Under the pieces are notes generated by a model, which worked only from the letters and a program-made list of their open reading frames with translations, ran no database searches and was not told the DNA's origin. The position numbers were made by a program, and so were the translations under genes. Below, piece by piece: positions 158-20,469 of a stretch of 23,823 nt of DNA (positions are counted from its first letter, which is position 1; every line of letters starts with the position of its first letter). Source of the stretch: a virus; IMG/VR virus record IMGVR_UViG_3300031613_000022, positions 1 through 23,823 of that record, one strand, 5' to 3'.

Positions 158-3100
158 CTAGTTTGGTAGGATCGCGTTGACTGGTAGCATCGACGGCGCC
201 TGCAATCCCATGCCCCAACCAAACGAATACCCTAACGTACCTTGCATGTACTTACCCAACCCTGATCCAGAAAACACAGTGTCTACATTAAGAGCTGGTC
301 CAATTCCTGCTCCAAATAGTAACGCAGCAGTAGGTCTATTTCGGATCATATTAGCCCCAATTTTCATGATACGGATTTTGTATGTTGAAAACCATACAAG
401 ACCATTTGCTTCAGCAGCGCCTCGACCCCTGCCTGACAAGCGACTGTAAGGGACAAACTCCTCAACTATGACCGCCAGTGCTTCTTTGGAGGTCATGCCT
501 TTTTGTTGGGTCAGATGATCATAAAGCACAGCTTTAGCTAAAAAGTCCCCATACTGAACCATGCGGTTAAGACCTTTGAACAGAGCAGTATCTTGTGAGA
601 TTACCAAGTGTTTAGCCGTTGTTTTGACTACCTCCGGTAGCTTGTCAAACTGATTACTCAGAAACTCTGTGACACGGTTCTCACTCATAGCTTTGTCACC
701 GGTGTTTACATCCTCTGATTTGAGAGTGTACTCACCAGCTTCCAGGAGAGGCCAGATAGACAGCTGACGGTTGGCATCTTCCAAAGCCTGGATCTGACCT
801 TTGATCTGATTGGCTTTGCGCTTGTTCTGGATCTCAGCCTGCAGTTCCACATTCAAAGCAGTGATCTGTTCTTTGTTTTTGTTGTAAGCGCTAGTTTCTA
901 TGAATTTTCTCACCATAGCTTTTGAGCCAGTGATGTACCCAATACCCCAAGACCCAAGATGCAACTGATTTGAGAACAGGTTGTCAATAATCACAATCAC
1001 AGACTTAACCACGATCGTGTCTTTGGCCAAGCTCACAGCGTCCTGGATCGTGCCCTCAACAGTGGAAAAGTATTTGAAGGCGTCCGCACCTATAATCGTA
1101 GTTGCCATGTCCTTAAAGGCTTTCTGCGTCTTAGGCCTCCAACGTGAAACTCCTGACCAAGAATCTGTTATCGATGCAGAACGTGTACCAATAACGTCCA
1201 GAACTACGTCTTTTCTGAGAGGAAGGTAATTAGGTTTGCCATAAAGCTTAGCTGCAGCCTCTTTGATCTGCCAGCCCAAAGTACCGTAGGCATCCTTGAT
1301 AGTGGCATCTTTCTGGTCTTTGTCTGCCACGTTTACAAAGTCATCAATGTTGCCATACTTTGCCAAGTGATCGTCATGGATTTTTTTAGTTGCCAGTAAC
1401 ACCTGCTGATTCAACTCCCCTGAAATCTCTTCTTCCAGGATACGGCCAGTCCATACACCTGACATTTTAAACAGATCTGTGCTGCTTTGAAGACTGGCTT
1501 GATCCTCAGCTTTCAGAGTGCGCTCATAGCCTTTGACCTCACCTTTTCCATTGAAGACTGGCTGCAAATATTCACCTGCTGGCACACCATCTTTGGTTGT
1601 CCGTCCACGGAGCTTAATCTGCTTGGTGTACTCCAGGGGAACCGGGCCGCCACTCTCAGCTGATCGGGTTACGCCAGTCCGTTGGTCGACGCCGCGCCAA
1701 GTTGGGTGAACGGTTTGAGCCAAGCCTTGATTAAAAGAAGCTTTGCCCCCGACCGTCGACCGATAGAGACTCCGAGTGCCTTGGTATTTCTCTGTTGGAT
1801 CCCCTTTGTAAGCAGACACTTTGACAAAGCCTTTGAAGATCATCTCTTGGTGTTTAGAGTCATCAGCAATCTCCAGAATAGTCCCAGGCTTTGGTGTACT
1901 AGGGGCATACCCCTTCCAGCCATTGTACTGCAGCATGAGACCCTCTTCACCTTTTGGTAGGCGTTGGGCCTCTAAAGCTCTGTTGGACTTGTGGTAGCCC
2001 GCCAGAACCTCCATGCCACGCTTCTCTGTGGCACTCAGATCTTTGACGGTCTGTTTGACGGAGTCTTCCATCAAATCGAACGCATACAGAGTCACCAAGC
2101 GATCGAGAGCATTCTCCAGTTTTTTGTTCGGCTTTGGCTTATTTTGAACGTCCTCATTCAAGAGTTCAGAGATCGCTCTAGCATTGCGAAGCAGGCTCTG
2201 AGACGTGTTGTCTCGGTTGACCATGTACTTCGCTAAGGCTCTTGCTTTACGCCTCATCAACTGGCTGTGGTTTCCACCCAAAGAAGACACCTTCTCCTCT
2301 GCTGCCTGAACCATGGAGCCAGACTTCACAGGATCAGCCATCAAGAAGAGAGCTTCATTACGGCTCAGAGCCATCAAGTCGGCTTTAGCTATAACTGTGA
2401 AAAGATCGTCATTTTCTTTTTCAGAAAGCTTTTTGCTGAAGTAGCCGGTCAACTCTTTGGGTATGTTCACACGTGCATCCTGGCGTACAGAATCTACTTG
2501 AGTATTGATCGGGTTAAGGAGATCAAACACAGGAGCGTTGCTTGGGGTTCGGCCCCTAAAATCACGGATAATTTCCCGTGTTGTAGCTAGATTTTCAAAA
2601 CCGTTCATAAAGTTTGTCAAAGAATTACCTTTGATCTCGGCTTCAGACTTTGAGCCCATTGAAACCACAAACGAAGACAACACAAGAGCAGCCTTCTTAG
2701 CCTTCTCCCGACGATTCGTGGGGTTAATCTTCTTGTTTTGTTTGTCAATCCACTGGGAAGTTTTCTCACTTCCCAGGCTAAGCATGTTGGAACTCCAGTC
2801 GTTAATCTTGTCCATGCGAGCATAGTTCTCGGCCATAACAATATACTGGTTCTCGCGCTTTTGAACTGCCAGAGCTTCAGCCAAGACATCTAAAGCACCT
2901 TTCACATTGCGAGGCTGAGCCTTACGGCTCACTGACAAGCTTGTAATCATGTTTGCAATGGTGGCCATGACACGATTGATCCAACCATCTACTGTGTCTT
3001 TTTTGATCTCATTGTTCTTGGGGGACGCCATGTTTTCCATAGCGTTTCGTAGAATTGGATCAGTCTGAGACAGGGCCAAGAACGTCGCTAGAACGTCTGT

Positions 3101-6100
3101 GTTACCATTGGCTGTGCGTCGTAGGCCATCAGCACCCGTCAGCATGTCATACCGGCGCTCAGCGGCCTTCATAGCCTTCTTGTTGGTCTCTGAACTACCG
3201 GGAGCCAACAGATCTGAAGGCTTCAGTGTTTTCATGACATGACCAAAGATCCGGTTGGTTCTCTCAACAGCGCCTGCTTCCATCCGCATGCCACTCATCA
3301 TGGCTTTATGGATCTGGCGAAAGACCTGTTCTTGGCGAACCTCTGGCAAAAACCCTGCATGGGTCGCTTGTGTACTGGCTTCTGCACTGACTTGAATGAG
3401 CTTATCAATTTTATAAGCAAAGCGGTCTGCAACTGACTCGTCCCCTGGAGTGGCTTGAGCTGTAAAACGCTCTCGGTTCAGTCTGATGTGGGCTTCCAAC
3501 CGGTTGGTGTAAGTCTCATCCAGCTGCTCCAAACGAGGATTGGTTGGATTGACTTGGTTCATCATATAGTTGCCAAACTGCTCCATCTCGATCTGTTGAT
3601 CTTTGGTAGCCTGACCCAACAACATTTCTGTGTTGAAGCTGATGTTTGAGAACAGAGTGCTGCCCGGCTTGGACTTGATCTTCAACATGCGCTTGACCTC
3701 ACCCAGAACCTTCTGAGCAATCTTCAGGACAGGATCGTAAACCTTCCGCTTCTTGGCCATCTCGATCAGGTTCTGGTTGGTCATCATCCAGCTGACAAAT
3801 TCGTTCATCTGGCGAGCTGGATTGGCTTCGTGGGTTGTCAGCTCTTTTTGAAGAACAGCGATTGAGCCAGCTGTGCCAGTGAAGTCTTTGACCAGGATAC
3901 GCTCGCCAGGCTTCCGGCGTGTTGTGGTCCCAGTGAACCGCTCAGGGATCAGGCTCCTGAACTCTTTGATAAGAGCTTCCAGGTTACGAGTCGCCATCGT
4001 CACATTAGGAGCTGAGCTTCTTGGATCATCAAAGTGGTTCACCAAGATACGGGTTGTGTGAACGTGCAGCATTTCATGCAGCAGGGTCTCTGGAGCCAGA
4101 TTGGATACAAAGACAATGTTAGATCCGATGTGGGCCTGCCCCCGTTGGATTGGAGATTTGTCCAGCTCTGAGTGAAGATCATTCCGAACTGCTTCCAACT
4201 GCTTGGGGGAGCCAAAATAGTAAGTGGCATTCACAAACTTAGGATCCTTCATCAGAACATCCTGAAGCAAGCTTTTCTGTTCAACAGAGAGCCCGTCGAT
4301 GTCCTTCAGAGCCAGAGGAATCTGACCACCTGTAAGCATGGTGACTTTCTCGTGGTTCTCAACTTCAGTTCCCACGGCCTTGATGGCAGCCACCAGTTGA
4401 GGATCTTTCTGGGCAGCGTCCCGGCTGGTCAATTGCTTCTTCTCAGCACGCCGAAGAGTCTTCATGTGTTTACGGTGGATCTTGTTAGCCCAGTTTTTGA
4501 TGCCCTCGTAATCCCACGTCTTGCCGTTAGAAATGTCTGTGCCCTCACGCACATAAGGGGAACCAGCAGCAGCCAGGTGATCGGTTGAAGTGCTGACCTC
4601 TGCAATGGTTAGCTTGCGTGCTTTGGACTCCATTGCCAGATCAGCCATTAAACGCTGTTGAGCTACTAACGCATCAAACAGGGCTTCATTGGACATTGAT
4701 TCCCAAGGTTTTCTACCAAAAGCACGATTAATCTTCTTGCGTGTCTCAAGAGAGAAATTGGCAATGTCACTCTTCTTCAAAGTAGCCAGCATCTGCTGAT
4801 ACCCAGTTGCCATGGCTTCATAAGGGCCGTCCAGCATCCATGCATCAAAGTTTGCTTTGTTGATCTGCTCAGAGTTGGTGACGATGTTATCCAGTGACAT
4901 CACTACGCCATCATAGACGGGCAGGGTGGTTGTAATGGAACTATCCCCTTGAACATAGGTGTTCAGGATCATCCGGCCGTCACCTGTTCCGATCGTCAGA
5001 TAGGGAGAGACTTTGACGCTTGCATCACTTGGAGTTTTGACTGTGTTTTGTGACCCAAACCGGCGGAGACGGGATACCTTAGTGTTATTGTTATAGCGAT
5101 CAAGCTTAGGAGTCTTGCTAACACCTTGGCTCTCGTTACCTTCTTGGAGAGTGGCTTTCGGTGGTGAGATATGAAAGCTCTGGGCATCTGTGTCATAGAC
5201 AGGTGAGCTCTTCAGAAGGCTTTCAAAGATCGTCTTCAACTCCGCTTCAGGCAGAGTCTGACTGGCTCCGATTTTACCTTCCGTGCGCCATTCCTTCAGT
5301 ACAGCGTTATACTGCTTTTCAAACAGATCTTGAAAAATAGCGGTCTGGATCGACGCCAATGTCTGAGACTGCTCCATGCGTATAGCTAAACCACCAGTGG
5401 CGAAGTCTAAAGACTCTCTCAAATGCGGGATCAAAAGCTCTTGGATCTTCAGAGTAACACCTCTGTGCATGATGTGATCGACCATCATTTTATTACCTGC
5501 AGGGTTACTGATGATCTTGCTGATGTCCATGTCGTCAATACCCGAACCAAATAGCTCTTTTAGGGCTTTAACAGTCTCTGGATCAAAGGGGGACCGATCA
5601 GATTTGTTAGCTTCCAGAGAGAGCCCTACATGGATTTCGTCAATGATCAAGCTGGCAATCTTACCAGCAATACCTTCCTCGCCTGCCCCGTATAGAAACA
5701 CGGTCAAAGGGTTCTTGGTCACACCCCGTTTAATTGTTAGGTGGTCAGAGCCGTCTACAGTGGGGCCATACACAGGATTGTAACTAAAGCCGTCCAGGAA
5801 CTTATCCATGACTTTCAAAAGCGCTGCATACGCTGGGTCATCAAGTAATGGTAGAATCAGATCACGAAGCTTTTTAGCAGCCACTTCATATAGGTCATCT
5901 GGATCTTCGGTGAAGTGGTCGGCAAATGTCTTCTTGTCTGGGCTGAACATAAGACCACCCTGAGCATACCGACGAATATCATCTATCGTGAATTCACCCA
6001 CAGACATGTGCATGATAGCATTGATAGGTCCGTCAGTAATGCCATCAGCTTCCAAGCCAAGGGACACCTTGAAAGATGTCTTAGCTTCTCCACCTTGCTC

Positions 6101-9100
6101 CTGAGCCATCTTCATAGCCTGTACAGTCTGTATAGCATGAAGAAGCTTGTCAGTTACTTCCACATTGGAAGCAGTAACGGCTTTGACGAAATCACTCCTC
6201 ATGAAATTCATCCGGTCCCCGTCAATCTCGCCACGACGCCATTCGTCGACGATGTCAAGTGCGGGCAGTAAAGCTTCAGGGTCGTTAAACAGATCTTTGG
6301 CTTGTTGAATACTGAGCTCTGGATCCTGCTTATGGACTTTGATGTCTGCAGCTTGAGCCACAGCCAGCCACACACGATCTACCATCTCAGAATCTGACAG
6401 ATCGATCGTTGCAACAGTGGGGGTGATCATCTCACGCATGGTCTTGTTACCCTGCTGAGTGACTGGACCTTGTTGCATCAGGCGGCCAACACTTGTGATG
6501 ACCCAATCAAAATATGTGGGAACCTTGTAGCGGGTTGTGCCTGTAGCTTCAGCATAAGCGTCGATCTCTGAAAGATACCCATCAACTCCTTCTATGCCTG
6601 ACCGTATCGACGCATTCTTGCCTTCGATTGATGTCCGGTGAGCTGGGTTCAATTTGTACGAGATGTTGTCGAGATCAATGAGGCCCAGGGCTTTTCCATA
6701 CATATCTCGTCCAAGAGTATCCATCAACCAGACCTGGCTGGTGTTCACATAAGAAGAAGTGTTCCGCTTCATGTCCAGAACCGTGGTCTCGTCTTCTGAT
6801 AGCTTCGCTATTGGGTTGCGCAGCTGGTGGCTCTCCCGCTTGGTGGAAGGCTTACCAATATGGCGTTCTTTCTCACCGTCTTGCGTGAAGGCTCGTGTGA
6901 ATACATCCGGCATGGAACCAAGGGTCTTGAGCGCAGTTGCATTGGATCCAGTAGGCTTCGGATTGATGAACGTCCACTTTATCTCGATGGCATCTTTGAT
7001 CTGGTCGGTAGGTTTGCCTTTAGCTTTAAGAGCGGTCTTTTCAGCTTCTATGGCGTCATCTGTTTTAGGAGCCAGAACCACGCCTTCAAAGTCTTCAATT
7101 TGCCCTTCCAGGAACTGTGCCTGCAGTGCAGTACCAGCTAAAGCTTTGAACAGACCGCTGGTGTAGCTGGCTGTCACTGTCTTGTCGGCCGAGACACCCA
7201 GCAGATCTTGAGTGAGCCGTGCGATCTCATCAAGCACACCTTGCAGAGGCATACCTTGAGAGGCCGCCAGCTTGGCAGAGTCTGTAATGACGGCATTATC
7301 AGGCGTACCAAACTTCTTCTTCAACTCATCTACGTCATAGCTAGGAATACTACGTCTTGCAGTGCGAGCCATCCATTCAGAAGTGGCCATAAACAATGCT
7401 TGAGACACAAGAGGATCAATAGCGTATTTGCCATTCTCTTGTAGAGTCATGAAGTTGAGGGTCTTGCCGTCATCTGTAGACAAGATGTCCTGAGTCTTGT
7501 CCCCTTTGGCATTTGTCCCGTTCATCAAGCTTTTGATCCAACGATCATCTTCAGCAGTCAGACGTTCATTGGTCAGATCATCGATTGATTTTGCAAATTT
7601 AGGCATCTCGTTTTGAACCAAGGCAGTTACCGCGGTGACTTCTTCTTTAGTCAACTCACGGATCATCCCATTGTCATCGCGCTGCAGCTTGGTGATGTTC
7701 TCCATCAGGAATGCGATCGGGTCTTCTTGCTCTGCCATCAGCGAGCTGAGAGGCTTGGCGTTGAACGCTTGAATAAAGTGGTTCACGGAGCCTTTGGCAG
7801 CCAGAAGCCGGTCTTTAGATTTGGTCATCCAGTGGCGCTCAAGAGCTTTGGTTTTGAGTTCAGCTTCTGTTGATGGCTTATCAGTGGGCTCTGGCTCAAC
7901 AGGGGCAACATCTTCGACTGTAGCAACTGCACCAACATTATCGTTGTCGATCAGATCCGCGTCTTCATCGACAACAGGTTCAGCAACAGACTCATCATCA
8001 ATCACCTCGTCAACTATAACAGGTTCAGATTTTACCTTCTTTTTCGGTTTTGCTTTAGGCTTGGTCTCAACAACAGCCGGAGCTTTCAGAGCTCTACTGT
8101 TCAGATCTGGAGCTTTCAAAGCACCTGACTGCAGGTCTTTGGTGAGGGTGCCCATCTCTGGGCCATATTGATCCAGGAGAATGTTGAAAAGACCCACAAC
8201 TGCTTCCAGGTCAGCTGATGCATTTCGCATCATGGCAACAGATGCCGGGGACTTCACTTGCCCATAAATCCCTTTCTTGTCCATGTAACGATCACCGTTT
8301 TTGTAGGACATGTAAGGGACAGATCGTCCAGCACCCTCAGAAACAGATTTGTTAATAGCCTTCATTTTGTTGATCTGGCTTGTAGCAAACGCCTTCAGTT
8401 CGATCAGGGCAGCTTGCCCTTCCAGCTTGTGACCAGAATCCATCGACTTGCGGATACGGGCATTGTGAGCTGACAGAGATATAAGGCCACGAGCCTCATC
8501 ACCTGTGTTGCGAATCTGGTTCGAGACAAGTTTGAAAGTTGGGAAATTGTCTGAGACATTCTGTTCTTTTTTGCGTTGCTCAGGGGTCATGTCCTTGAGA
8601 GCAGCATCCAGATCAGCTTGGTTCTGTTCCTTGTTGGCGTCGCTGGTCTCGAAGCTTTTGGCAATCAATGAGGCTACTTTCAGCTTCTTCTTCAGACGCT
8701 CAGCAGTCTTACCACCGCCTACCTGATCTAAGACAATGTTGATGTCTGCAGATGTCACAGCTTCCGGGTTTGCCAGTTTGATCATGTCAATTAACCGGCC
8801 ACGATTCAGAGCTTCTTCTTCAGTCTTTGGGGCACCAGCAGGATCATCAAGACCCACCACTTCCCGAAGCTTTACTGGGTCCATTGAACCAATAAACTTG
8901 TTGGCTTCCGTCACAGCAGCAGAGCTCTCGTAAAGCTTCACTGATTGGTTCACGGTAGTGTACTTGACTCGATCTGGATCAGCTTCATCAAGCTTATTCA
9001 TCTCGGTTTCCACATCAGTGGCCGAGGCTTCTCTCATAATAGCCATCTCGGACAGCACACCAAAGCTTGCCATCAAACGATCATCGTCGGTGGATTCCTT

Positions 9101-11101
9101 GTTGGCCAGGGTGGCACCGTGAGCGTCGATCACATCAATGCGGGTGAGAGGGCGAGGATTGGCTTCAAAGCTTTCCTTGAGAGCCGGAACTTGATCCATG
9201 GTCTCCATAGCTTCAACGTCTGACAGAAGAGCAGAATTGCGAACCACGTCCTGAGCAGCCTTTTTCTTGTCGGCCGCTTTGGAAACGTCTTCCACATTCA
9301 CTGGTTCAGTAGGCTCAGTGGATTCAGTTGGCTCATCAGTGCTGGTTGGATCAGTGGGTTCTTCTGTTCCGGTTTGGTTTGGTGTGGGTGGGCCAGAGAC
9401 TTCAGGGGTTTCAGAAGCTTCAGGAGCCTCTGTATCCGGGGCAGGGGCACCTATCGTGCTGGCAGCGTCTGCCATACTCTCATTGGCTGTTTTCAGGGCG
9501 TCAGGGCTCACTGCCGAGTCTGCATTAGCAGAGGCTTCTGCCGCAGCAGTCCGAGCTTCCAAAGCTGAACCAGCAACATCAGACCCTGCACTTGCTACAG
9601 TAGAGACAACCTTACCAGCAAGACCAGGTGATTGCATAATACCAGCCGCACCAAGACCACCTATTGCACCTTCAACAGCAGACGATGCCACATCTTCAAA
9701 AAGTTCTGTTTCAACTCCCCCACCAACAATTAAACCAGCGTTAGATGTGAGCTGAGCATTACCTTCTTGGATAAATTCTTCTGTAGTTTCACGGGCTGTA
9801 TTGCCAGCTACTTTCTTTGAAGCTTGTGCGATCGACGTACTTCCAACACCACGCCCTAAAGGATTTGCAGCAAACGAAGCTGTGAGCTTACCAGCTAAAA
9901 TTGCTGCAGGAAGGGCCAACGCAAATGTCACAAAACCGCTATCTATAACCAAATCGCCAAGAACCTCATCATGGCTCATGTTGTTGTTTCGCATTTCCCA
10001 ATACTTATCATTGCCCACCATGTCAGCTTCGGTAAGAGACAAAAATTTCATTTGGTTTTGTTGAACAGCGGCACCACTTTCACCAAGACCCATAATGAGA
10101 GGGGCCGCTTTCTCACCTTCTTTGAGAGCCAAAGATCTACCAGATGCTGTTTTCAAAGAAGCCTTAGCTGCCTCTTTTGACATACCACCTGCAACCATTT
10201 TGCTGACAGCCCTGGCTTTACCAACATACGAAATAGGGGCAGCAAACGCAGCAACCGATGCCACACCTTGAGTTACGAGAGAGGCAGCTTGATCAGGGTT
10301 TTGAGCGTAGTTCACAGCTGTGTCGACCATCGCTGCGCCTTGCTTCTTGAGCCAAGGAGATACAACACGATCCCACTTGCTGTCACTATCGGCATTGGCA
10401 GCCAGGTCTTGCTGATACTGAGCTTCGCGGTCTATTTTATCCAGCTGCGCAGCTCGTGCAAACTGGTCCCCACGCTCAACTGATGTGTCAGACTTTAGGC
10501 TATTAATCTGTCCTGTGATTGCCTGAGTTGCTTTACCAATACCCGGTGCAAGCGGGTAGCCAAAAACCTCTGGTAATTCAAAAGCATCCACTGTCTTGTT
10601 TCGGCCGTAATCACCAATAGCAGCAACCCCGGACAAAAAAGATCCAGCAACGTTTACAGCACCAGTTGATAGATCAGCAGCCGTGTCTCCAAGCAACTCA
10701 CCCCTGGTACGGCCCGCGTCTTGAATACGATCTTCGTTGAGATAAGCACGTGCATAATCGGCTTTGTAGTTCGCAGCCTCTTGGCCATATTTAATGCTGA
10801 ACGCCAACGAAGACAGAGAGTTCAAATCTTTAGTAACTTCGTCCTGAGCCAGTTCATTCCCTTCTTGGGATGCCAGAGCCATACTAGCCCGACCTTCTGG
10901 AGACTCCAAGGATGCTCGCTTCTGAGCAGAGATTTCTTGCAAGCTTGCAGACTTACCTTCAACCAAGGACGGCTCAGAAGCTTGAGGAGCTTGTGTCTCA
11001 ACAGGTGTGCCAACCTCAAACCGACCAGGGGCAGACTGACCAAAAGACGACCCAAACTGAGCCATGTCGTTAAGTGAGATAGGTTTGGTTGGCTTCGCCA
11101 T
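158..11101 (-). CDS. N4-like virion-packaged RNA polymerase (giant, about 3,647 aa)
   Basis: Single-subunit DNA-dependent RNA polymerase carried in the virion and ejected to transcribe early genes. Core signatures seen: DTLGR at 1461-1465 (the T/DxxGR motif), motif A with D1686 in LEADGITDGP, motif B R1792-x3-K1796-x7-Y1804-G, and motif C with D2064 in PVYDGVV. The A-to-B and B-to-C distances (about 110 and 268) are close to those I recall for N4. The N-terminal ~545 residues have several Gly/Ala-rich hydrophobic stretches. Low-complexity linkers lie near 547-604 (P/T/E-rich) and 1007-1080 (K/P then D/E-rich). A zincin-like HEMLH (2342-2346) lies after the polymerase. The final ~1,000 residues have no assigned domain. 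In N4 the flanking regions serve packaging and ejection. Start chosen at 11101: GAGG lies 9 nt upstream, whereas the in-frame ATG at 11167 would place codons through the terminator. Last gene of the leftward block. Confidence 0.95.
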   Translation of the reverse strand: MAKPTKPISLNDMAQFGSSFGQSAPGRFEVGTPVETQAPQASEPSLVEGKSASLQEISAQKRASLESPEGRASMALASQEGNELAQDEVTKDLNSLSSLAFSIKYGQEAANYKADYARAYLNEDRIQDAGRTRGELLGDTAADLSTGAVNVAGSFLSGVAAIGDYGRNKTVDAFELPEVFGYPLAPGIGKATQAITGQINSLKSDTSVERGDQFARAAQLDKIDREAQYQQDLAANADSDSKWDRVVSPWLKKQGAAMVDTAVNYAQNPDQAASLVTQGVASVAAFAAPISYVGKARAVSKMVAGGMSKEAAKASLKTASGRSLALKEGEKAAPLIMGLGESGAAVQQNQMKFLSLTEADMVGNDKYWEMRNNNMSHDEVLGDLVIDSGFVTFALALPAAILAGKLTASFAANPLGRGVGSTSIAQASKKVAGNTARETTEEFIQEGNAQLTSNAGLIVGGGVETELFEDVASSAVEGAIGGLGAAGIMQSPGLAGKVVSTVASAGSDVAGSALEARTAAAEASANADSAVSPDALKTANESMADAASTIGAPAPDTEAPEASETPEVSGPPTPNQTGTEEPTDPTSTDEPTESTEPTEPVNVEDVSKAADKKKAAQDVVRNSALLSDVEAMETMDQVPALKESFEANPRPLTRIDVIDAHGATLANKESTDDDRLMASFGVLSEMAIMREASATDVETEMNKLDEADPDRVKYTTVNQSVKLYESSAAVTEANKFIGSMDPVKLREVVGLDDPAGAPKTEEEALNRGRLIDMIKLANPEAVTSADINIVLDQVGGGKTAERLKKKLKVASLIAKSFETSDANKEQNQADLDAALKDMTPEQRKKEQNVSDNFPTFKLVSNQIRNTGDEARGLISLSAHNARIRKSMDSGHKLEGQAALIELKAFATSQINKMKAINKSVSEGAGRSVPYMSYKNGDRYMDKKGIYGQVKSPASVAMMRNASADLEAVVGLFNILLDQYGPEMGTLTKDLQSGALKAPDLNSRALKAPAVVETKPKAKPKKKVKSEPVIVDEVIDDESVAEPVVDEDADLIDNDNVGAVATVEDVAPVEPEPTDKPSTEAELKTKALERHWMTKSKDRLLAAKGSVNHFIQAFNAKPLSSLMAEQEDPIAFLMENITKLQRDDNGMIRELTKEEVTAVTALVQNEMPKFAKSIDDLTNERLTAEDDRWIKSLMNGTNAKGDKTQDILSTDDGKTLNFMTLQENGKYAIDPLVSQALFMATSEWMARTARRSIPSYDVDELKKKFGTPDNAVITDSAKLAASQGMPLQGVLDEIARLTQDLLGVSADKTVTASYTSGLFKALAGTALQAQFLEGQIEDFEGVVLAPKTDDAIEAEKTALKAKGKPTDQIKDAIEIKWTFINPKPTGSNATALKTLGSMPDVFTRAFTQDGEKERHIGKPSTKRESHQLRNPIAKLSEDETTVLDMKRNTSSYVNTSQVWLMDTLGRDMYGKALGLIDLDNISYKLNPAHRTSIEGKNASIRSGIEGVDGYLSEIDAYAEATGTTRYKVPTYFDWVITSVGRLMQQGPVTQQGNKTMREMITPTVATIDLSDSEMVDRVWLAVAQAADIKVHKQDPELSIQQAKDLFNDPEALLPALDIVDEWRRGEIDGDRMNFMRSDFVKAVTASNVEVTDKLLHAIQTVQAMKMAQEQGGEAKTSFKVSLGLEADGITDGPINAIMHMSVGEFTIDDIRRYAQGGLMFSPDKKTFADHFTEDPDDLYEVAAKKLRDLILPLLDDPAYAALLKVMDKFLDGFSYNPVYGPTVDGSDHLTIKRGVTKNPLTVFLYGAGEEGIAGKIASLIIDEIHVGLSLEANKSDRSPFDPETVKALKELFGSGIDDMDISKIISNPAGNKMMVDHIMHRGVTLKIQELLIPHLRESLDFATGGLAIRMEQSQTLASIQTAIFQDLFEKQYNAVLKEWRTEGKIGASQTLPEAELKTIFESLLKSSPVYDTDAQSFHISPPKATLQEGNESQGVSKTPKLDRYNNNTKVSRLRRFGSQNTVKTPSDASVKVSPYLTIGTGDGRMILNTYVQGDSSITTTLPVYDGVVMSLDNIVTNSEQINKANFDAWMLDGPYEAMATGYQQMLATLKKSDIANFSLETRKKINRAFGRKPWESMSNEALFDALVAQQRLMADLAMESKARKLTIAEVSTSTDHLAAAGSPYVREGTDISNGKTWDYEGIKNWANKIHRKHMKTLRRAEKKQLTSRDAAQKDPQLVAAIKAVGTEVENHEKVTMLTGGQIPLALKDIDGLSVEQKSLLQDVLMKDPKFVNATYYFGSPKQLEAVRNDLHSELDKSPIQRGQAHIGSNIVFVSNLAPETLLHEMLHVHTTRILVNHFDDPRSSAPNVTMATRNLEALIKEFRSLIPERFTGTTTRRKPGERILVKDFTGTAGSIAVLQKELTTHEANPARQMNEFVSWMMTNQNLIEMAKKRKVYDPVLKIAQKVLGEVKRMLKIKSKPGSTLFSNISFNTEMLLGQATKDQQIEMEQFGNYMMNQVNPTNPRLEQLDETYTNRLEAHIRLNRERFTAQATPGDESVADRFAYKIDKLIQVSAEASTQATHAGFLPEVRQEQVFRQIHKAMMSGMRMEAGAVERTNRIFGHVMKTLKPSDLLAPGSSETNKKAMKAAERRYDMLTGADGLRRTANGNTDVLATFLALSQTDPILRNAMENMASPKNNEIKKDTVDGWINRVMATIANMITSLSVSRKAQPRNVKGALDVLAEALAVQKRENQYIVMAENYARMDKINDWSSNMLSLGSEKTSQWIDKQNKKINPTNRREKAKKAALVLSSFVVSMGSKSEAEIKGNSLTNFMNGFENLATTREIIRDFRGRTPSNAPVFDLLNPINTQVDSVRQDARVNIPKELTGYFSKKLSEKENDDLFTVIAKADLMALSRNEALFLMADPVKSGSMVQAAEEKVSSLGGNHSQLMRRKARALAKYMVNRDNTSQSLLRNARAISELLNEDVQNKPKPNKKLENALDRLVTLYAFDLMEDSVKQTVKDLSATEKRGMEVLAGYHKSNRALEAQRLPKGEEGLMLQYNGWKGYAPSTPKPGTILEIADDSKHQEMIFKGFVKVSAYKGDPTEKYQGTRSLYRSTVGGKASFNQGLAQTVHPTWRGVDQRTGVTRSAESGGPVPLEYTKQIKLRGRTTKDGVPAGEYLQPVFNGKGEVKGYERTLKAEDQASLQSSTDLFKMSGVWTGRILEEEISGELNQQVLLATKKIHDDHLAKYGNIDDFVNVADKDQKDATIKDAYGTLGWQIKEAAAKLYGKPNYLPLRKDVVLDVIGTRSASITDSWSGVSRWRPKTQKAFKDMATTIIGADAFKYFSTVEGTIQDAVSLAKDTIVVKSVIVIIDNLFSNQLHLGSWGIGYITGSKAMVRKFIETSAYNKNKEQITALNVELQAEIQNKRKANQIKGQIQALEDANRQLSIWPLLEAGEYTLKSEDVNTGDKAMSENRVTEFLSNQFDKLPEVVKTTAKHLVISQDTALFKGLNRMVQYGDFLAKAVLYDHLTQQKGMTSKEALAVIVEEFVPYSRLSGRGRGAAEANGLVWFSTYKIRIMKIGANMIRNRPTAALLFGAGIGPALNVDTVFSGSGLGKYMQGTLGYSFGWGMGLQAPSMLPVNAILPN

Positions 11102-11110
11102 GCGAGTCAT

Positions 11111-11116
11111 CCTCAA
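11111..11116 (-). promoter_or_regulatory. Ribosome binding site of the vRNAP gene
   Basis: The minus strand reads TTGAGG, then ATGACTCGC, then the ATG at 11101. GAGG lies 9 nt from that start, good spacing. The alternative in-frame ATG at 11110 directly abuts GAGG and has no spacing, so it is unlikely to be used. This site decides the start. Confidence 0.7.
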
Positions 11117-11124
11117 GCAATTAA

Positions 11125-11161
11125 CAAAATAAAAGGAGGCTATGGATGTACCAAAGCCTCC
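11125..11161 (-). terminator. Intrinsic terminator/attenuator upstream of the vRNAP gene
   Basis: On the minus strand GGAGGCT pairs with AGCCTCC, a T-T mismatch follows, then TGG pairs with CCA around the loop TACAT. The stem (11135-11161) is followed by TTTTATTTTG (11125-11134), a typical U-tract. It lies after the stop of the 683-residue gene (11213) and only 23 nt before the vRNAP start. There is no room for a conventional promoter between them, so vRNAP mRNA must arise by readthrough or from an unusual start. A partial terminator here would lower vRNAP output relative to the other virion proteins. Confidence 0.8.
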
Positions 11162-11212
11162 CTGCATTATTCACTTTTTATGTGGGCCTGTGTATGCCCG
11201 TCTTGTGACGGC

Positions 11213-13264
11213 TTACATGTTGAGCATTTCTGGTATCAGATCCATCAAGCCCATGACTTCATCTGATATAGGACCACTATTTTGTATGTCCGACATGAAC
11301 TTAGACAAGATACCTTCAGCTTGTGTACGTCGACCCTCATCAAGGTCGTTTCTTGCTTGCAGCATACTGATTGCCGCAGACACTTGTTGCACTTGCTGTG
11401 GGGGCAAACCTACTTCATCCCCGATCATCTGAATAGTCTCCGCAGGTGATCCACGGAATGCGTCCTGTGCTTGCTGATACCCAGGAGTTTGTGCGCCGCT
11501 TGCTTGGCTTGAAGGGCCATCGCTTTGTGGACCCCTGCCTGCAGAAAGAGCTTGGCTCAAGTTATCAGGTGTACTCATTACTGGAGACGGTGTCGCCGGT
11601 GTTGCAGGAGCTGCAGCATCCTGACGACTTGCCCAAAAGTCAGCAACTCCTTCCCCATTTTGTCGAATTGCGTCAGCTTGTCCGAAAAGGTTTGCGCCCC
11701 TCTCAGGACTAAACATACTTACGCCACCAGCAATGGCACCTTGTACACCCGCAGCTGCATTGTAACCTCCTTGAAGCACTTGACCAACCATCGTGTCAGT
11801 AGAGTCGCTTAAATCCCTAACATCTTTCAATATGTTTTGACCAACGGCATTAGAATTAGCAGCTCTTTCTGCAGGTGTTAATGAGCCTGAAGGGGCAGCG
11901 TTATTTGATTTAGGGCTCGGGACACCATTTGAACCGCTGCCTCCTCCTCCTGAAAACAATGGAAGGCTTTCACCGCCTGCCCCCGGTGGAGCATTTGCAA
12001 TACGCGCCTCGTAAGTATACTCTGTGCCCATCTCAGTCATACGAGCCAAAGCCCGATCTGCTCTTTCATCGTTACCACGAGTTGCTGCGATCGCATACTC
12101 TTCTTGAAGTTCATCCCACTCACCTCGAAATGATTCAAGTTTTGCGTTTTCACGGTTATACTCGGCTCGTAATTCTTGGTTGGCTGCCCTGTTTGCTTCG
12201 TTGTTGAGATCACCAAGAATGGTTCTAATACCGCTATCGTTCAGCTTAGTTTTATTCCATAAAAAACCCCCCGCCTTGACAGTAGACTCCATAACTGCAG
12301 CAATTGTTTCAGGTGCAACCTTTGAAAATTCTTTTTGCAGTTTGTTGAAGTCAGCTTCCATGTCTCCGAACGACCCCATGAACGAAGACTCGTCTTCACC
12401 AGCAGCCGTGAACTGTTTCTTCATGCGAGACTGTAACTCAGCGGCCGTTTTACCGGGTGCGCCGCTGTAAGCTTGCTGGCCTACCGCATGCCAACGCAAC
12501 CCGGGGTTTGCGCTAACCATACGCTTCAGCTCAGTTTTTTGATAATCAAGTGCTGTGTTGGTGTTCACCATCATAGGATTGCTTGCCATAGCACGTTTAA
12601 CAGCTGGGCTAGTATCCCAATGCGCGGGATTCACCTCATCAGCTGCAGCAAGCCATGCAGCTTCTTTCTCTGCAGAGTAACCTTGTTCGAGAATCCATGG
12701 AGTCATCTCTGACGGTTGAAGGCTGTTGGCCATTTGGTCGACGCCAGCCAACGCTTCTTGTCGCATTGCTGCATTGGCGTCATCACTAGCTTGTTGTGCA
12801 ACAGTACGCTTTCGATCTTCGATTTTCCAGCTATCTGTAATTTGTTTTTGACCTAAGTTATAACCTGCAGTCTCTGTGCTCTGATCCCGGCTGTTGTTGA
12901 TTGACTGGGAGTTGGCGTTGGCAAAGAGATCATCACGTCGACCGGCAATCATCTCTAACGTGTCACCGTTTATGTCCCTGGGGTTGATACCCAGAGATTG
13001 AAAAATACCTTCTTTGCTGGCTTTGTCCCAGCTGCCAACATCAGTAATGCCCATGGCTTTACCAACAGCTGCAGCAGAGTTTTCAAACATGAGATCAGCA
13101 TCAGCTTGAGCTTGCTCAGCATCACGCTCTCCCTGGAATCCACGGAGGTTGGTTCCCATGTTTTGGAAAGCGCCAGAGACCATCTGACCTCCACGAGCAG
13201 ACGCCTTCAGTGAGCTATCAAAGTTTGGCGCGTCGACGTTCTGCCATGTAATACGGTTTCCCAT
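11213..13264 (-). CDS. Internal virion protein, N4 gp51 position (683 aa)
   Basis: No catalytic motif was recognised. The protein is soluble-looking, rich in Ala, Gln, Asn, Ser and Gly, with long helical and coiled-coil-prone stretches (roughly residues 20-75 and 290-400). A Gly/Ser/Pro-rich flexible segment follows (roughly 425-475), and the last ~80 residues look helical (AAISMLQARNDLDEGRRTQ). There is no signal peptide or clear membrane span. The start at 13264 has AAGGA 8 nt upstream (minus strand AAAGGATATTATTTATG). By order, immediately before the vRNAP gene and after the gp52-like gene, it corresponds to N4 gp51, a virion protein thought to belong to the ejected internal set. The function is inferred from position. 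A terminator follows its stop, making it the last gene of the strongly expressed block. Confidence 0.7.
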   Translation of the reverse strand: MGNRITWQNVDAPNFDSSLKASARGGQMVSGAFQNMGTNLRGFQGERDAEQAQADADLMFENSAAAVGKAMGITDVGSWDKASKEGIFQSLGINPRDINGDTLEMIAGRRDDLFANANSQSINNSRDQSTETAGYNLGQKQITDSWKIEDRKRTVAQQASDDANAAMRQEALAGVDQMANSLQPSEMTPWILEQGYSAEKEAAWLAAADEVNPAHWDTSPAVKRAMASNPMMVNTNTALDYQKTELKRMVSANPGLRWHAVGQQAYSGAPGKTAAELQSRMKKQFTAAGEDESSFMGSFGDMEADFNKLQKEFSKVAPETIAAVMESTVKAGGFLWNKTKLNDSGIRTILGDLNNEANRAANQELRAEYNRENAKLESFRGEWDELQEEYAIAATRGNDERADRALARMTEMGTEYTYEARIANAPPGAGGESLPLFSGGGGSGSNGVPSPKSNNAAPSGSLTPAERAANSNAVGQNILKDVRDLSDSTDTMVGQVLQGGYNAAAGVQGAIAGGVSMFSPERGANLFGQADAIRQNGEGVADFWASRQDAAAPATPATPSPVMSTPDNLSQALSAGRGPQSDGPSSQASGAQTPGYQQAQDAFRGSPAETIQMIGDEVGLPPQQVQQVSAAISMLQARNDLDEGRRTQAEGILSKFMSDIQNSGPISDEVMGLMDLIPEMLNM

Positions 13265-16248: not shown

Positions 16249-17448
16249 TCAACCCAGATCTAGGTTTGTCCGAATTGCGATTATAGCCGAATTCAAATAG
16301 TCATCTGTAATCTGATTAGGTGCCGGAAGATCTTCATCCATAGCTTTCTGTGTGGTCCAGGTATCCAAAAGCATCTTCACAACCTTGGACTCAGCATCTC
16401 TTTGGTACGAGTCAATTTGCTGAGCATGTAGTGCTTTTTGCTTACCAACTGCACCTGCAATCACGGTCGTCCCATCTGTTCTCGTATCGAGTGTTTTGGA
16501 GCGGTGTGCTTCTGTTTGCTCATTGATTGACGCAAGCTGAGCAGGAAGTGTGTTGGTATTTGTATAGACCTTCCCAGCGGTGTCTGCATCAAAGCCAGCA
16601 GTCTGTGCAGGGAGTAAATCAGAGAGTTGATAAGTTTTCACGGCAGTCTCAGCATTCACGCTAGAAACTTGTGCTGGTAGAACTGAAGCTGTCTGATAAA
16701 GGGTTTGATCTTTGGAAGCTGAAATCTGTGCAATTTGAGCTGTAGCTGTATCGATCTGGCTTTGTGCTTTTTCCAGTTCTTTTGGCAACAAGTTAGCGAT
16801 CTCGTAATCCAAACGTGAAGTCTCTTTTTGCAGTTGGGTCAACTGGGCTGGAAGCAAACTTGCATTCTGGTATTCAGTCTGAGCTGTCTGAGCTTTGATA
16901 GCGCAATACTGCGCATCTTCACTTGCCAGTTTCATGACAGACAGGGAGTAATTTGCAGCGACTGTGTTGGTCTCGACACGAGCTGCAATAAGCTTTGCCT
17001 TGGCTGCCTCGTTATCAAGCCGAGCTGTTACGACCAGAATCTCTGCAGTTCGAGCTTGCTTCTGTGCTGCCTGAGCCTGCCAGTACGCGCTGTCTTTGGA
17101 GAGGAGATACTGAACTGAAGACGCCATAGCGGACTGCACAAGAGCCACATAGGCAGTGCTGTATTCTTTGCCGGTAATGCGGCCGCTATCGTATTGAGCT
17201 TTTAACTGGCCATCGAGAGCCACCATCAGACCATCAAAGAGACCTTCGCCTCCAACGGTACGTGTCGTAATGTCTGCCTCTGTTAGACGATGTACGTCAT
17301 CATAGAGAGAGTTGTTTGTGCTGCTTGGAATAGTAAATTCTGCACCTGTCAAATCAACAGCCGGTAGGGCAAAATCCTTACCGGCTGTCAGACTATCAAA
17401 CAGATCTTTTGCCGCTACATCGGCATCGCATGTTGTGTATGTGGGCAT
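16249..17448 (-). CDS. Internal virion protein with 22-residue repeats, N4 gp54-like (399 aa)
   Basis: Almost wholly alpha-helical. Residues ~85-120 contain GRITGKEYSTAY and QYLLSKDSAYW, which I associate with the N4 gp54 family of virion proteins. Residues ~120-330 form a long amphipathic Ala/Gln-rich helical region. Within it five copies of Y-x5-L-P occur, with P at 200, 222, 258, 280 and 302, usually followed by A-Q and preceded by an E/D-T element; the period is 22 apart from one gap of 36. Such proline-punctuated 22-residue amphipathic repeats recall lipid-associating helices, which would suit an ejected protein working in the envelope, but this is inference. Only a weak GAAAG precedes the start at 17448. 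It follows the Tad2-like gene by 46 bp. Confidence 0.8.
   Translation of the reverse strand: MPTYTTCDADVAAKDLFDSLTAGKDFALPAVDLTGAEFTIPSSTNNSLYDDVHRLTEADITTRTVGGEGLFDGLMVALDGQLKAQYDSGRITGKEYSTAYVALVQSAMASSVQYLLSKDSAYWQAQAAQKQARTAEILVVTARLDNEAAKAKLIAARVETNTVAANYSLSVMKLASEDAQYCAIKAQTAQTEYQNASLLPAQLTQLQKETSRLDYEIANLLPKELEKAQSQIDTATAQIAQISASKDQTLYQTASVLPAQVSSVNAETAVKTYQLSDLLPAQTAGFDADTAGKVYTNTNTLPAQLASINEQTEAHRSKTLDTRTDGTTVIAGAVGKQKALHAQQIDSYQRDAESKVVKMLLDTWTTQKAMDEDLPAPNQITDDYLNSAIIAIRTNLDLG
16537..16872 (-). repeat. Coding repeat: 22-residue units with Y-x5-LP in the 399-aa protein
   Basis: Residues 193-304 contain YQNASLLPAQ, YEIANLLPKE, YQTASVLPAQ, YQLSDLLPAQ and YTNTNTLPAQ. Proline positions are 200, 222, 258, 280 and 302, giving intervals of 22, 36, 22 and 22; the 36 equals 22 plus two heptads. 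The DNA copies have diverged, so this is a protein-level repeat rather than a recent tandem duplication. Confidence 0.8.
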
Positions 17449-17494: not shown

Positions 17495-17944
17495 TCAGAC
17501 GACGATCTGCCAGTCGTTGGCAAAGCAGTCACCACAAGACGGAACCCAAGATGAAAGCGATCCATCAACTTGGGATATTCGGAACGAAGGATTAATGACT
17601 TGCCCGTAATCGTTTGTGTGTTTGTATAAGACCTCTACCCACATACCTTTGCCGTTCCAGCCAGCCCGAGCCACTTTGTGACCAGATTCCATGGCCACAA
17701 GAGCGTGCCCAAAGCTCAAGGAACCATCAGGTTGATATGCGTTGTGAAACACATCTGAAGGGGACCAGCTGATATACCCTTTGTGGCCAATATGGTTGGA
17801 TGGCCCACCGTCAACGTATTCCACCAGGTAGCCAGTATCGTCGCCGTTCTCATCCGAAGGTAGATCCCAACCTCGATAGTTGTTGTACTCCAGACGATTC
17901 ATCGCAACGGCGTAGATCTTCTTGGTTCCAAACATCACGTTCAT
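17495..17944 (-). CDS. Tad2-like (DUF2829) domain protein with N-terminal phage domain (149 aa), candidate anti-Thoeris/anti-CBASS
   Basis: The C-terminal ~75 residues match the DUF2829/Tad2 pattern: SFGHAL (77-82), KVARAGWNGKGMWV (90-103), DG (127-128), W133, D139 and A-x-DW (142-145). Tad2 proteins oligomerise and trap Thoeris-type (ADP-ribose-derived) signals, and some also bind cyclic dinucleotides. Residues 1-75 are a separate module (NRLEYNNYRGWDLPSDENGD, then GYISWSPSDVF) that I recall from other phage and prophage proteins fused to DUF2829; its role is unknown to me. Start at 17944: its ATG overlaps the upstream TGA (ATGA) and AAAGGAG lies 8 nt before it. A longer start at 18007 would overlap the upstream gene by 67 nt and is less likely. 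The domain call is strong; the anti-defence role is inferred, and a structural role is the alternative. Confidence 0.8.
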   Translation of the reverse strand: MNVMFGTKKIYAVAMNRLEYNNYRGWDLPSDENGDDTGYLVEYVDGGPSNHIGHKGYISWSPSDVFHNAYQPDGSLSFGHALVAMESGHKVARAGWNGKGMWVEVLYKHTNDYGQVINPSFRISQVDGSLSSWVPSCGDCFANDWQIVV

Positions 17945-18234
17945 GCCAGTCGCTCCTTTGGTCCACCATAAGTTGGCACTGGTTTGGTGATTGATTTCAC
18001 TGCCCACATGGCACCGTCTTCAATATGGGTTTGAGCCAAGGCTTTCAGACGCATGCGTTCACCTTGCTGAGTGATCTCCTCAGACGTGACAGCTCCTTTT
18101 TGGGGCACCAGTTCATCAAGCAGATCAATCAGAGCTGCAGCAGCCGTTTTTACACGGTCTACTGCACTGTCAGCGCTTGGATTGAAGGAAGTACCAACCC
18201 GGTACTCCCCTTTGGTTTGGATAATATCATTCAT
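17941..18234 (-). CDS. Acb2/Tad1-like helical hairpin protein (97 aa), candidate cyclic-nucleotide sponge
   Basis: A short N-terminal strand-like stretch (YRVGTSFNPS, 11-20) precedes one helix (about 24-43, DRVKTAAAALIDLLDEL) and a second longer helix (about 51-84) containing RLKALAQTHIEDGAMWAVK. The R..ALA.T.IE.gaMWA.K pattern in helix 2, with Thr-Lys soon after, is what I recognise from the Acb2/Tad1 family. Those small proteins assemble into hexamers and sequester cyclic di- and trinucleotides and Thoeris signals. Ligand-binding residues cannot be assigned by eye. The start at 18234 overlaps the previous stop as ATGA, and its SD is weak (AGG abuts the start), so it probably depends on coupling. 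Its stop overlaps the next start in the same way. The alternative is a small head-associated protein. Confidence 0.65.
   Translation of the reverse strand: MNDIIQTKGEYRVGTSFNPSADSAVDRVKTAAAALIDLLDELVPQKGAVTSEEITQQGERMRLKALAQTHIEDGAMWAVKSITKPVPTYGGPKERLA
17953..17959 (-). promoter_or_regulatory. Ribosome binding site of the Tad2-like gene
   Basis: Minus strand AAAGGAG, 8 nt before the ATG at 17944. It lies inside the end of the Acb2/Tad1-like gene and selects this start over the longer one at 18007, giving a stop-start coupled pair. Confidence 0.75.
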
Positions 18235-18887
18235 CCTGCGCTACCCCGTGCAGCCATCTGGTTCCCAGCAAGGCGATCCAGTTCAGACCTGGTCAAAGAA
18301 GGGAGCACTTCCAGAGCAAACTCAGGCGCCCATTTCTGATGGACAACATCTTGCCGAGTCTCTTTGTCTTTGCGGACAGTGATCGACAAAAACTTGCGTG
18401 CTTTCAGCTGGTTAAAGAGGATATTCGGGAGGTGATAGCCATTCTCTGTAGCCTCGCCATACGGAATAAATTTCCGCACTGTACCAACGTATTTGTTAGC
18501 TACAGTGAAGATCTCACCCTCAAGCTCTTTCTTGTTTGGGTTCAGGTTCGTAATGACAACGCGAACCAGCTTCATCTGCTCCATGTGGATCGCTTTACGA
18601 ACACCAGCCTTGCGAGCTTGCTCTAGCAAAACCTTGTTCACAGGGGCCACAGTAGCACTGCGAGGGCGTGCGACAGGCTCATCAGCAGGGATAGTTCCAC
18701 TGTTGAGCGCTTCCGTAACTTTGGCACGAAGAGCGTCTACGCCGATCTTGGGAGAGAATTTCAGGCCAATTTGTTTGGCACGGAATTTGAGAGCTTCCAG
18801 TTCTTCTTCTGGTGTTGGCCCTTGCTCCTCATCTGGAAGCGCCAGTTCGTCATCTGTTTCTTGAAGATCTTGAGGTTCGTTTGTCAT
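18231..18887 (-). CDS. Conserved head-region protein, N4 gp55 position, with HeH/SAP-like motif (218 aa)
   Basis: The first ~30 residues are strongly acidic. Residues ~32-61 (ALKFRAKQIGLKFSPKIG, then DALRAKVTEAL) have the helix-extended loop-helix look of small HeH/LEM/SAP-type domains. The C-terminal ~120 residues (VRVVITNLNPNKKELEGEIF, then GTVRKFIPYGEATENGYHLP) form a conserved-looking domain that I associate with a protein encoded beside the capsid gene in many tailed phages. Its role is unproven; a head-completion or DNA-contacting structural protein is plausible. It is the first gene after the capsid gene, separated by 133 bp. Its stop overlaps the start of the Acb2/Tad1-like gene (ATGA), so the two are translationally linked. 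Confidence 0.7.
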   Translation of the reverse strand: MTNEPQDLQETDDELALPDEEQGPTPEEELEALKFRAKQIGLKFSPKIGVDALRAKVTEALNSGTIPADEPVARPRSATVAPVNKVLLEQARKAGVRKAIHMEQMKLVRVVITNLNPNKKELEGEIFTVANKYVGTVRKFIPYGEATENGYHLPNILFNQLKARKFLSITVRKDKETRQDVVHQKWAPEFALEVLPSLTRSELDRLAGNQMAARGSAG

Positions 18888-18976: not shown

Positions 18977-19002
18977 GTGAGGGGAAGTTTCCTACCCCTC
19001 AC
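18977..19002. other. Hairpin just downstream of the capsid gene
   Basis: A perfect 8-bp stem, GTGAGGGG (18977-18984) with CCCCTCAC (18995-19002), encloses a 10-nt loop 19 nt beyond the capsid stop codon. For the leftward capsid transcript it is followed by ACCACATCAC, not a U-run, so it is not a canonical terminator in that direction; it could stabilise the 3' end or be a processing site. On the plus strand it is followed by TTTTCTC, so it might stop antisense transcripts. The rest of the 133-bp gap holds a short GGTGTGATGT-type repetition and no convincing promoter. Confidence 0.5.
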
Positions 19003-19020: not shown

Positions 19021-20469
19021 TTAGATGCGGGCGATGGTCTTGATGATAGCAATGCGCTCAGTACGCAGAGCCATAAAGCCGTAGTACCACTTGATCGAGC
19101 TGAACCCCATTTCGCCGTAAGGGTCATTCCGATCAGCAGTCTCATTGCCAGGCATCTTGGTCGTAATCTTGAACTTCATCGACTTGGCAGACTTGTCCAT
19201 CTGGAAACCGATTGTGGTGAAGCTCTGGTCGCCAACAACGAGCATTGGGTAGATGTCGTATTGATCGTTGGTTTCCATGTAGCCAGCGTTCGTATCAACG
19301 TCAGCACCAGCACCGGCCCAGTTGAGCATCTCGGGAACCACAACGAAGCGGAAACGATCGATCGAGCCAATTTCACCGTTCAGCAAAGTTGTTGCATTGG
19401 CATACATATGCACTGGGACAAAAGCAGGTGTATCAAACTGGTCGACCATGCCGCGAACGGTAGCTTCCAGTTCGGAGCCAATATACATGACACGGCCCGA
19501 AGAAACGGTCTTGGTGTCAATCATGCGCGAACCAGCGATGACTTTGGTCTGCAGAGGCGTGCGGTTGTCGTTCAGAATACGAGCCAAACGGGACAGGTCA
19601 TCGTAAACCACTTCCGAGATTTCGGCACCTTCACCGGTAATCTCGTAATCAGACGAAGCAGCGCCTGCATAAACAATCACACCAGCGGCAGCCAGAAGGT
19701 CTTTCTGCAGAACGGCTTCTGTCAGCTGTGTTGCACCAGTCACTAGTTCACGGCTGATGTGGCTGTAAAGCTCATCGTCCGAGTCAAAGTCCATGGTTTC
19801 CTGAGTCCACTCAGTGAAGAAACCAAACTTGTGCAGCGAGCCGCTCAGAGTGAGACGAGTGAAACCAACGCGGTTCACACGGCCACCAGTCTCGGTCAGA
19901 GTCGGCATCTTGCCAGTGATCGTACCGATGTCTTTCGAGGAGCCATAAAGATTACCGTAACTGGCAATCGACGTAACGCCGACATCAAGAGCTACAACAG
20001 CATTCTTTTTCGTGGCGTTGACATAGGTAGGCGACAGGGAACCAACCAGTGTGATTGCAGTGAGGCCACTGCCACCGGAGTCATCATCACCGTCTGATGC
20101 AACCAGTGTGTCATCAACGTTGTCGTTGATCGTAACAACAGCAGCAGCCGAATCCGCATTGGCTACCATGACAGTTGCAGATGGGAAGATCACCTGAAAC
20201 TCGCTGCCTGACATTGTCGCGCCAGCAGCATCGATACCTTGGTCGTTGACGTTGCGATCATCGAGCAGAGGGATGTAGTGATGGACCCGGATCTCTTTGC
20301 CGTAATGCTTGGGCATCTTGGTCACGTCGGCCAAGGGCATGAAGTACATTTCTTTTTGGGCTTCAATAAGCGCTTTGCGCTGCCAAAAGAAGGTGTTCAT
20401 CTGCGTCGAGCCAGGCCCGTCGATGGTCGATTTGCTACCGGGGGGAGAGTTATACTGATGTGTAGGCAT
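19021..20469 (-). CDS. Major capsid protein, N4-gp56 family (482 aa)
   Basis: Forms the icosahedral head shell. The N-terminal part has the family look: [17 protein letters not shown] (24-40), then [20 protein letters not shown] (57-76) and DQGIDAAGA. Later the conserved-looking [17 protein letters not shown] (173-189) and [12 protein letters not shown] follow, and the C-terminus ends [15 protein letters not shown]. Length is somewhat above what I recall for N4 gp56 (about 400), partly because of a variable stretch at roughly 90-165 with the acidic-glycine run [10 protein letters not shown]. The start at 20469 has AAGGA about 10 nt upstream. It lies 29 bp downstream of the scaffold gene, the usual scaffold-then-capsid order, and a hairpin follows its stop. 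It is expected to be the most abundant product of the region. Confidence 0.92.

Follow-up and report, generated by a model that had tools for sequence, protein, structure and literature searches.

The window analysed here is a stretch of 23,823 nucleotides, a 23.8-kb IMG/VR fragment. Its virion operon lies on the minus strand in the order gp59 (cut), gp58, gp57, gp56 (capsid), gp55, acb2, tad2, gp54, gp53, gp52, gp51 and gp50. All ten genes from gp59 to gp50 were matched in N4 order by PHROG and HMM searches, with gp59 truncated by the window end. The gp56 homologue (nt 19021–20469) encodes the major capsid protein, and the gp50 homologue (nt 158–11167, phrog_2206) encodes the virion RNA polymerase. 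The gp55 homologue (nt 18231–18887, phrog_2130) and the gp54 homologue (nt 16249–17448, phrog_2050 virion structural protein) are the upstream and downstream anchors of the site occupied by acb2 and tad2. An earlier note on this DNA held that these two are the only genes added to the N4 order, and the placement of the ten genes revealed no further insertion. That note also described two 4-nt ATGA overlaps; both are exact, one joining the gp55 stop to the acb2 start (nt 18231–18234, minus strand) and the other joining the acb2 stop to the tad2 start (nt 17941–17944, minus strand). The overlaps give gp55-acb2-tad2 the geometry of translational coupling. The note placed the pair in the virion operon behind the capsid gene. 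The operon position holds, but the pair lies directly 3′ of gp55 and not of gp56.

The window capsid protein carries a clade-variable insertion of about 80 residues that is not in N4. A similar insertion is found in roseophage DSS3phi2, and a diverged version in the capsid protein of Vibrio phage 1.026.O.

A sister contig (L002/L010), listed separately, keeps the gp55-acb2-tad2 order and encodes an Acb2 differing by 1 residue. Since a second contig carries the same order, a chimeric origin of the window contig is unlikely. No compositional break was found at the acb2-tad2 cassette. Viral scans with single sequences of gp55 and Tad2 matched the sister contig alone, and alignments were required.

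The acb2-like gene (nt 17941–18234, minus strand) encodes a protein of 97 residues. The protein matches Pfam PF24729, the Acb2/Tad1 hairpin, with E 1.2e-15 and 57.8 bits against a curated cut-off of 27. Its GEYRVG and THIEDGAMWAVK motifs belong to a pattern, GEYRVG...FNPS...THIEDGAMWAVK, that is common to 80 viral Acb2 loci. The AlphaFold model, built from 47 sequences with pLDDT 90, contains helices at residues 8–13, 23–40 and 51–83, which is the Acb2 layout of a short N-terminal helix followed by two long antiparallel helices. The best Foldseek match of the model is T4 Vs.4/Acb2 with cGAMP (prob 0.95, TM 0.57/0.64), and the E value of 0.7 is expected because the protein is small and helical; the other matches, among those listed, have a prob below 0.5. 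Against the PDB, phmmer with the Acb2 sequence alone gave no match, and a profile of 6 sequences matched a designed protein only. With the 47-sequence profile T4 Vs.4 became the top natural match (E 0.076), T4 Vs.4 and Tad1 both being weak. By eye, Tyr11 lies at a plausible position for the Tyr that stacks on the ligand (T4 Y8), and the invariant Lys29 at one for the conserved Lys of the dinucleotide site, although the N-terminal alignment with T4 Vs.4 is unreliable.

The tad2-like gene (nt 17495–17944, minus strand) encodes 149 residues, with an N-terminal phage domain (phrog_872) and a C-terminal PF11195 Tad2 domain. The reading frame is open to a GTG at nt 18007, but the ATG at nt 17944, which has the good Shine-Dalgarno sequence AAAGGAG, is preferred as the start. 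The match to PF11195 has E 3.6e-21 and 75.9 bits against a curated cut-off of 25, and that to phrog_872 spans the full length of the protein. Phmmer retrieved ModTad2 (best E 1.4e-12), SPO1 Tad2 and AcrIIA7. The predicted model (pLDDT 93) has the Tad2 monomer fold, with ModTad2 and SPO1 Tad2 as the top Foldseek matches (prob 1.00, E 7e-7, TM up to 0.88 on the target). The family assignments of the earlier note, one Acb2/Tad1-like and one Tad2-like protein, are supported by Pfam, phmmer, and AlphaFold with Foldseek. The N-terminal domain of the two-domain Tad2, about 75 residues (window nt 17720–17944; phrog_872, also phrog_9467), is highly conserved.

Each virion-operon junction was compared across named phages and viral contigs, with lineages defined as groups at 90% identity of the upstream protein. 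The sample for gp55-gp54 consists of 163 lineages plus L065, a contig that ends before gp54, which gives 164 Schitoviridae lineages. An extra gene is present in 10 of the 164, leaving about 94% of the schitovirus lineages empty there, and all 17 of the junctions read in named isolates are empty. Antagonists of nucleotide immune signals account for seven of the ten inserts (7/164); the remaining seven junctions of the virion operon have no such gene (0/923 lineage-junctions). The difference has a Fisher p of 1.6e-6, which is a guide and not a strict probability because the lineages share ancestry. The earlier note had proposed a survey of this junction; antagonists of immune signals do recur there, and the window is not the sole carrier, as six other lineages have them.

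The junction cargo was identified by Pfam as Acb2+Tad2 in the window, Tad2+Acb4 in L065, a single protein with Acb4 (PF13876) fused to an RyR domain (PF02026) in L079 (nt 10930–11529), a truncated Acb2 of 63 residues in L188/L189/L190 (L188 nt 6618–6806), and Acb4 in L221/L238 and again in L226. A truncated Acb2 of 62 residues in L355 (nt 4746–4931) was identified by HMM. Acb4 is a family of CBASS sponges (PMC11722364), and RyR corresponds to RyDEP, a family that acts by degrading or sequestering 2′/3′cADPR (PMC13232231). The cargo thus represents one functional class drawn from four unrelated families. Three of the junction lineages carry antagonists for both CBASS and Thoeris. In six of the seven anti-signal cassettes the start coincides with the stop codon of gp55, as ATGA, TAATG or TGATG, and this holds for none of the three other inserts.

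The Acb4-RyR fusion of L079 is a possible CBASS and Thoeris antagonist within one chain. The truncated Acb2s of L188 and L355 are devoid of the N-terminal Tyr segment, and their dinucleotide binding may differ. The inserts of other kinds are in L052, L413 (nt 3125–4970) and L416 (nt 4228–4923), the latter two structural-looking by eye and uncoupled from gp55. Some further candidates were rejected: the gap of L036 is a split gp54 and not an insert, and the gp54-gp53 gaps of L078, L097 and L101 come from a split or variable gp54 or hold unrelated ORFs.

In a gp55 plus capsid tree (FastTree, branch supports left aside) the seven lineages all belong to a single clade that has about 18 leaves and includes empty junctions as well. 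The junction Acb4s also cluster together, as 5 of the 39 Acb4 leaves, and the content of Acb2, Tad2 and RyR varies between the junction lineages. The single clade and the single Acb4 group make the junction look like one old cargo site with exchanged content. The simplest reading is that gp55-gp54 had an ancestral Acb4, which later disappeared, gave way to Acb2, Tad2 or RyR, or gained one of these as a partner. The window Acb2 is up to 64% identical (best segment) to the Acb2 of other phages and much less like the truncated forms of the same site; thus it probably arrived at the site separately from them.

The earlier note regarded a two-sponge unit wired to structural genes as a new arrangement; the pairing of a CBASS sponge with a Thoeris sponge is not new. 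In phage N4 itself gp48 is Acb4 and gp49 is Tad2-like, and the two are adjacent outside the virion operon (L011, nt 3633–4486). N4 gp48 was demonstrated to act as Acb4 in the triggering of Panoptes (PMC12657230). Acb4 adjoins Tad2 in about 30 of 79 other Tad2 loci. Among 50 schitovirus records, Tad2 is present in 15, Acb4 in 25 and Acb2 in 6, and 10 of the 15 with Tad2 have Acb4 at a distance of about 1.3 kb or less. Acb2 adjoins Tad2 in L118, L132 and L299. Both families are already known, and many phages, the classic phage N4 among them, pair an antagonist of CBASS with one of Thoeris.

In L299 (nt 5351–6764), from an unrelated phage, Acb2, Tad2 and Acb4 lie in a row directly after a gene for a GroES-like co-chaperonin.

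The acb2-tad2 observation is confirmed, and the pair is probably a dual-sponge counter-defence cassette in a cargo site whose content is exchangeable and which belongs to the late virion operon of a single Schitoviridae clade. The ligands are those predicted from the families; membership of a family does not settle the ligand, and the specificity of some relatives in the RyR and Tad2 families is different. An Acb2 oligomer would sequester the cyclic oligonucleotides of CBASS, and Tad2 would sequester the cADPR-type signals of Thoeris and possibly cyclic dinucleotides too, so that neither the CBASS nor the Thoeris effector would be switched on. Through the coupling to gp55, both sponges would be made late and at a high level with the virion proteins. 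Late synthesis could supply the high dose of a stoichiometric sponge and have it present when capsid-derived triggers appear.

The late position of acb2-tad2 is odd in that most characterised sponges (SPO1 Acb4, RyDEP) are expressed early. It becomes plausible because sponges act stoichiometrically and because capsid or head-assembly proteins can trigger both systems: one Thoeris system responds to the major capsid protein, and a prohead protease can activate CBASS, which can also be evaded through capsid mutations (PMC11312562). The proposed late dosing of a sponge against a capsid trigger is consistent with this literature. A broader proposal is that the virion operon has a built-in slot for counter-signalling, in which interchangeable CBASS and Thoeris antagonists are coupled to gp55 and made in synchrony with capsid-derived triggers, late and not early; we consider this possible but rather doubtful. 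The earlier note had the sponges made with the capsid protein, which is unsupported as written, since the pair follows gp55 and a GC-rich hairpin, GTGAGGGGTAGGAAACTTCCCCTCAC, lies between the capsid gene and gp55 (nt 18977–19002, minus strand). The hairpin may lower the read-through from the capsid gene into gp55-acb2-tad2. Within the cassette, a scan of the coding strand gave no sigma-70-like promoter or terminator above chance. Across lineages, a terminator-like hairpin occupies the gp56-gp55 gap in 70 of 139, suggesting attenuation after the capsid gene.

The position might be a matter of dose and not of timing. The virion operon would then be chosen as the site of strongest expression for a sponge that needs abundance, with the capsid trigger irrelevant, and we give this a real though minority chance. 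The effect of a sponge is proportional to its concentration (PMC12043709), strong hairpins 3′ of the cassette in L188 and L226 look as if they close an expression unit of its own, and Acb2 is also found 5′ of the terminase gene in the schitovirus L166 and in L118. However, the highest expression is presumably that of the capsid gene, whereas the cassettes sit beyond the hairpin that follows it, and the Acb4-Tad2 pair of N4 is outside the virion operon altogether.

The two proteins might instead belong to the virion or help in its morphogenesis, with the Acb2 and Tad2 folds put to a new use, for instance carried into the next cell as a sponge available from the first minute on. Their place between structural genes and the extra conserved N-terminal domain on Tad2 would agree with such a role. 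We nevertheless judge it improbable, as the same families occur outside the virion operons of many phages, the great majority of schitovirus lineages have no gene at the junction, and the junction cargo interchanges between unrelated folds. That gp55-gp54 is a neutral landing site, simply tolerant of insertions, seems just as improbable. The inserts of L052, L413 and L416 are not anti-signal genes, as a neutral site would allow, but the other seven of the ten antagonise one class of signal, and the coupling to gp55 seen in six of those seven is shared by none of the three. Lateness might also be an adaptation to a defence that senses sponges. Panoptes is one such defence: it kills once its decoy nucleotide has been depleted by a sponge, and it is triggered by both Acb2 (PMC12657218) and N4 Acb4 (PMC12657230); late sponges would leave it no time to respond. 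This reading is likewise improbable, as N4 Acb4 lies outside the virion operon and nothing connects the hosts of the window phage with Panoptes.

For the cassette in its cargo site, the novelty lies in the position. No description of a fixed, refilled anti-signal slot in a virion operon was found in the openly searchable literature, with bioRxiv preprints as far as they are in PMC. With a fixed slot close to the capsid gene and different sponges refilling it, the question of when a sponge must be made becomes directly testable. Capsid or head-assembly proteins are able to trigger Thoeris and CBASS, but expression is early for those sponges whose timing is established so far. If the slot reading is true, counter-defence would be a late function synchronised with the trigger rather than an early one. 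The site can also serve as a discovery tool, in that an unknown small gene at the junction, coupled to gp55, becomes a candidate antagonist of nucleotide signals.

Comparison with known systems sets the window apart mainly by location. The Acb2-like protein shares with T4 Vs.4 the PF24729 hairpin above the cut-off, the helix layout and the best fold match. It is distant in sequence from the solved Acb2 even by the 47-sequence profile, has a longer loop between the long helices, and is encoded in the virion operon. The C-terminal domain of the Tad2-like protein is about 30–40% identical in the fold matches to SPO1 gp34.65 and ModTad2 (PF11195) and shares the GWNGKGM signature and the top Foldseek prob with them, whereas the N-terminal domain of the two-domain form has no equivalent in the solved Tad2. 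N4 and the window phage, both schitoviruses, each encode a CBASS sponge beside the same two-domain Tad2. The CBASS sponge is Acb4 in N4 and Acb2 in the window, and the N4 pair, gp48-gp49, lies on the opposite strand beyond gp50, outside the virion operon, whereas the window pair is inside it. The anti-defence islands with Acb4 or RyDEP, in SPO1 and DyoEdafos, likewise encode antagonists of nucleotide signals. Those islands are groups of small accessory genes with early to middle expression, whereas the window site is one fixed junction in the virion operon.
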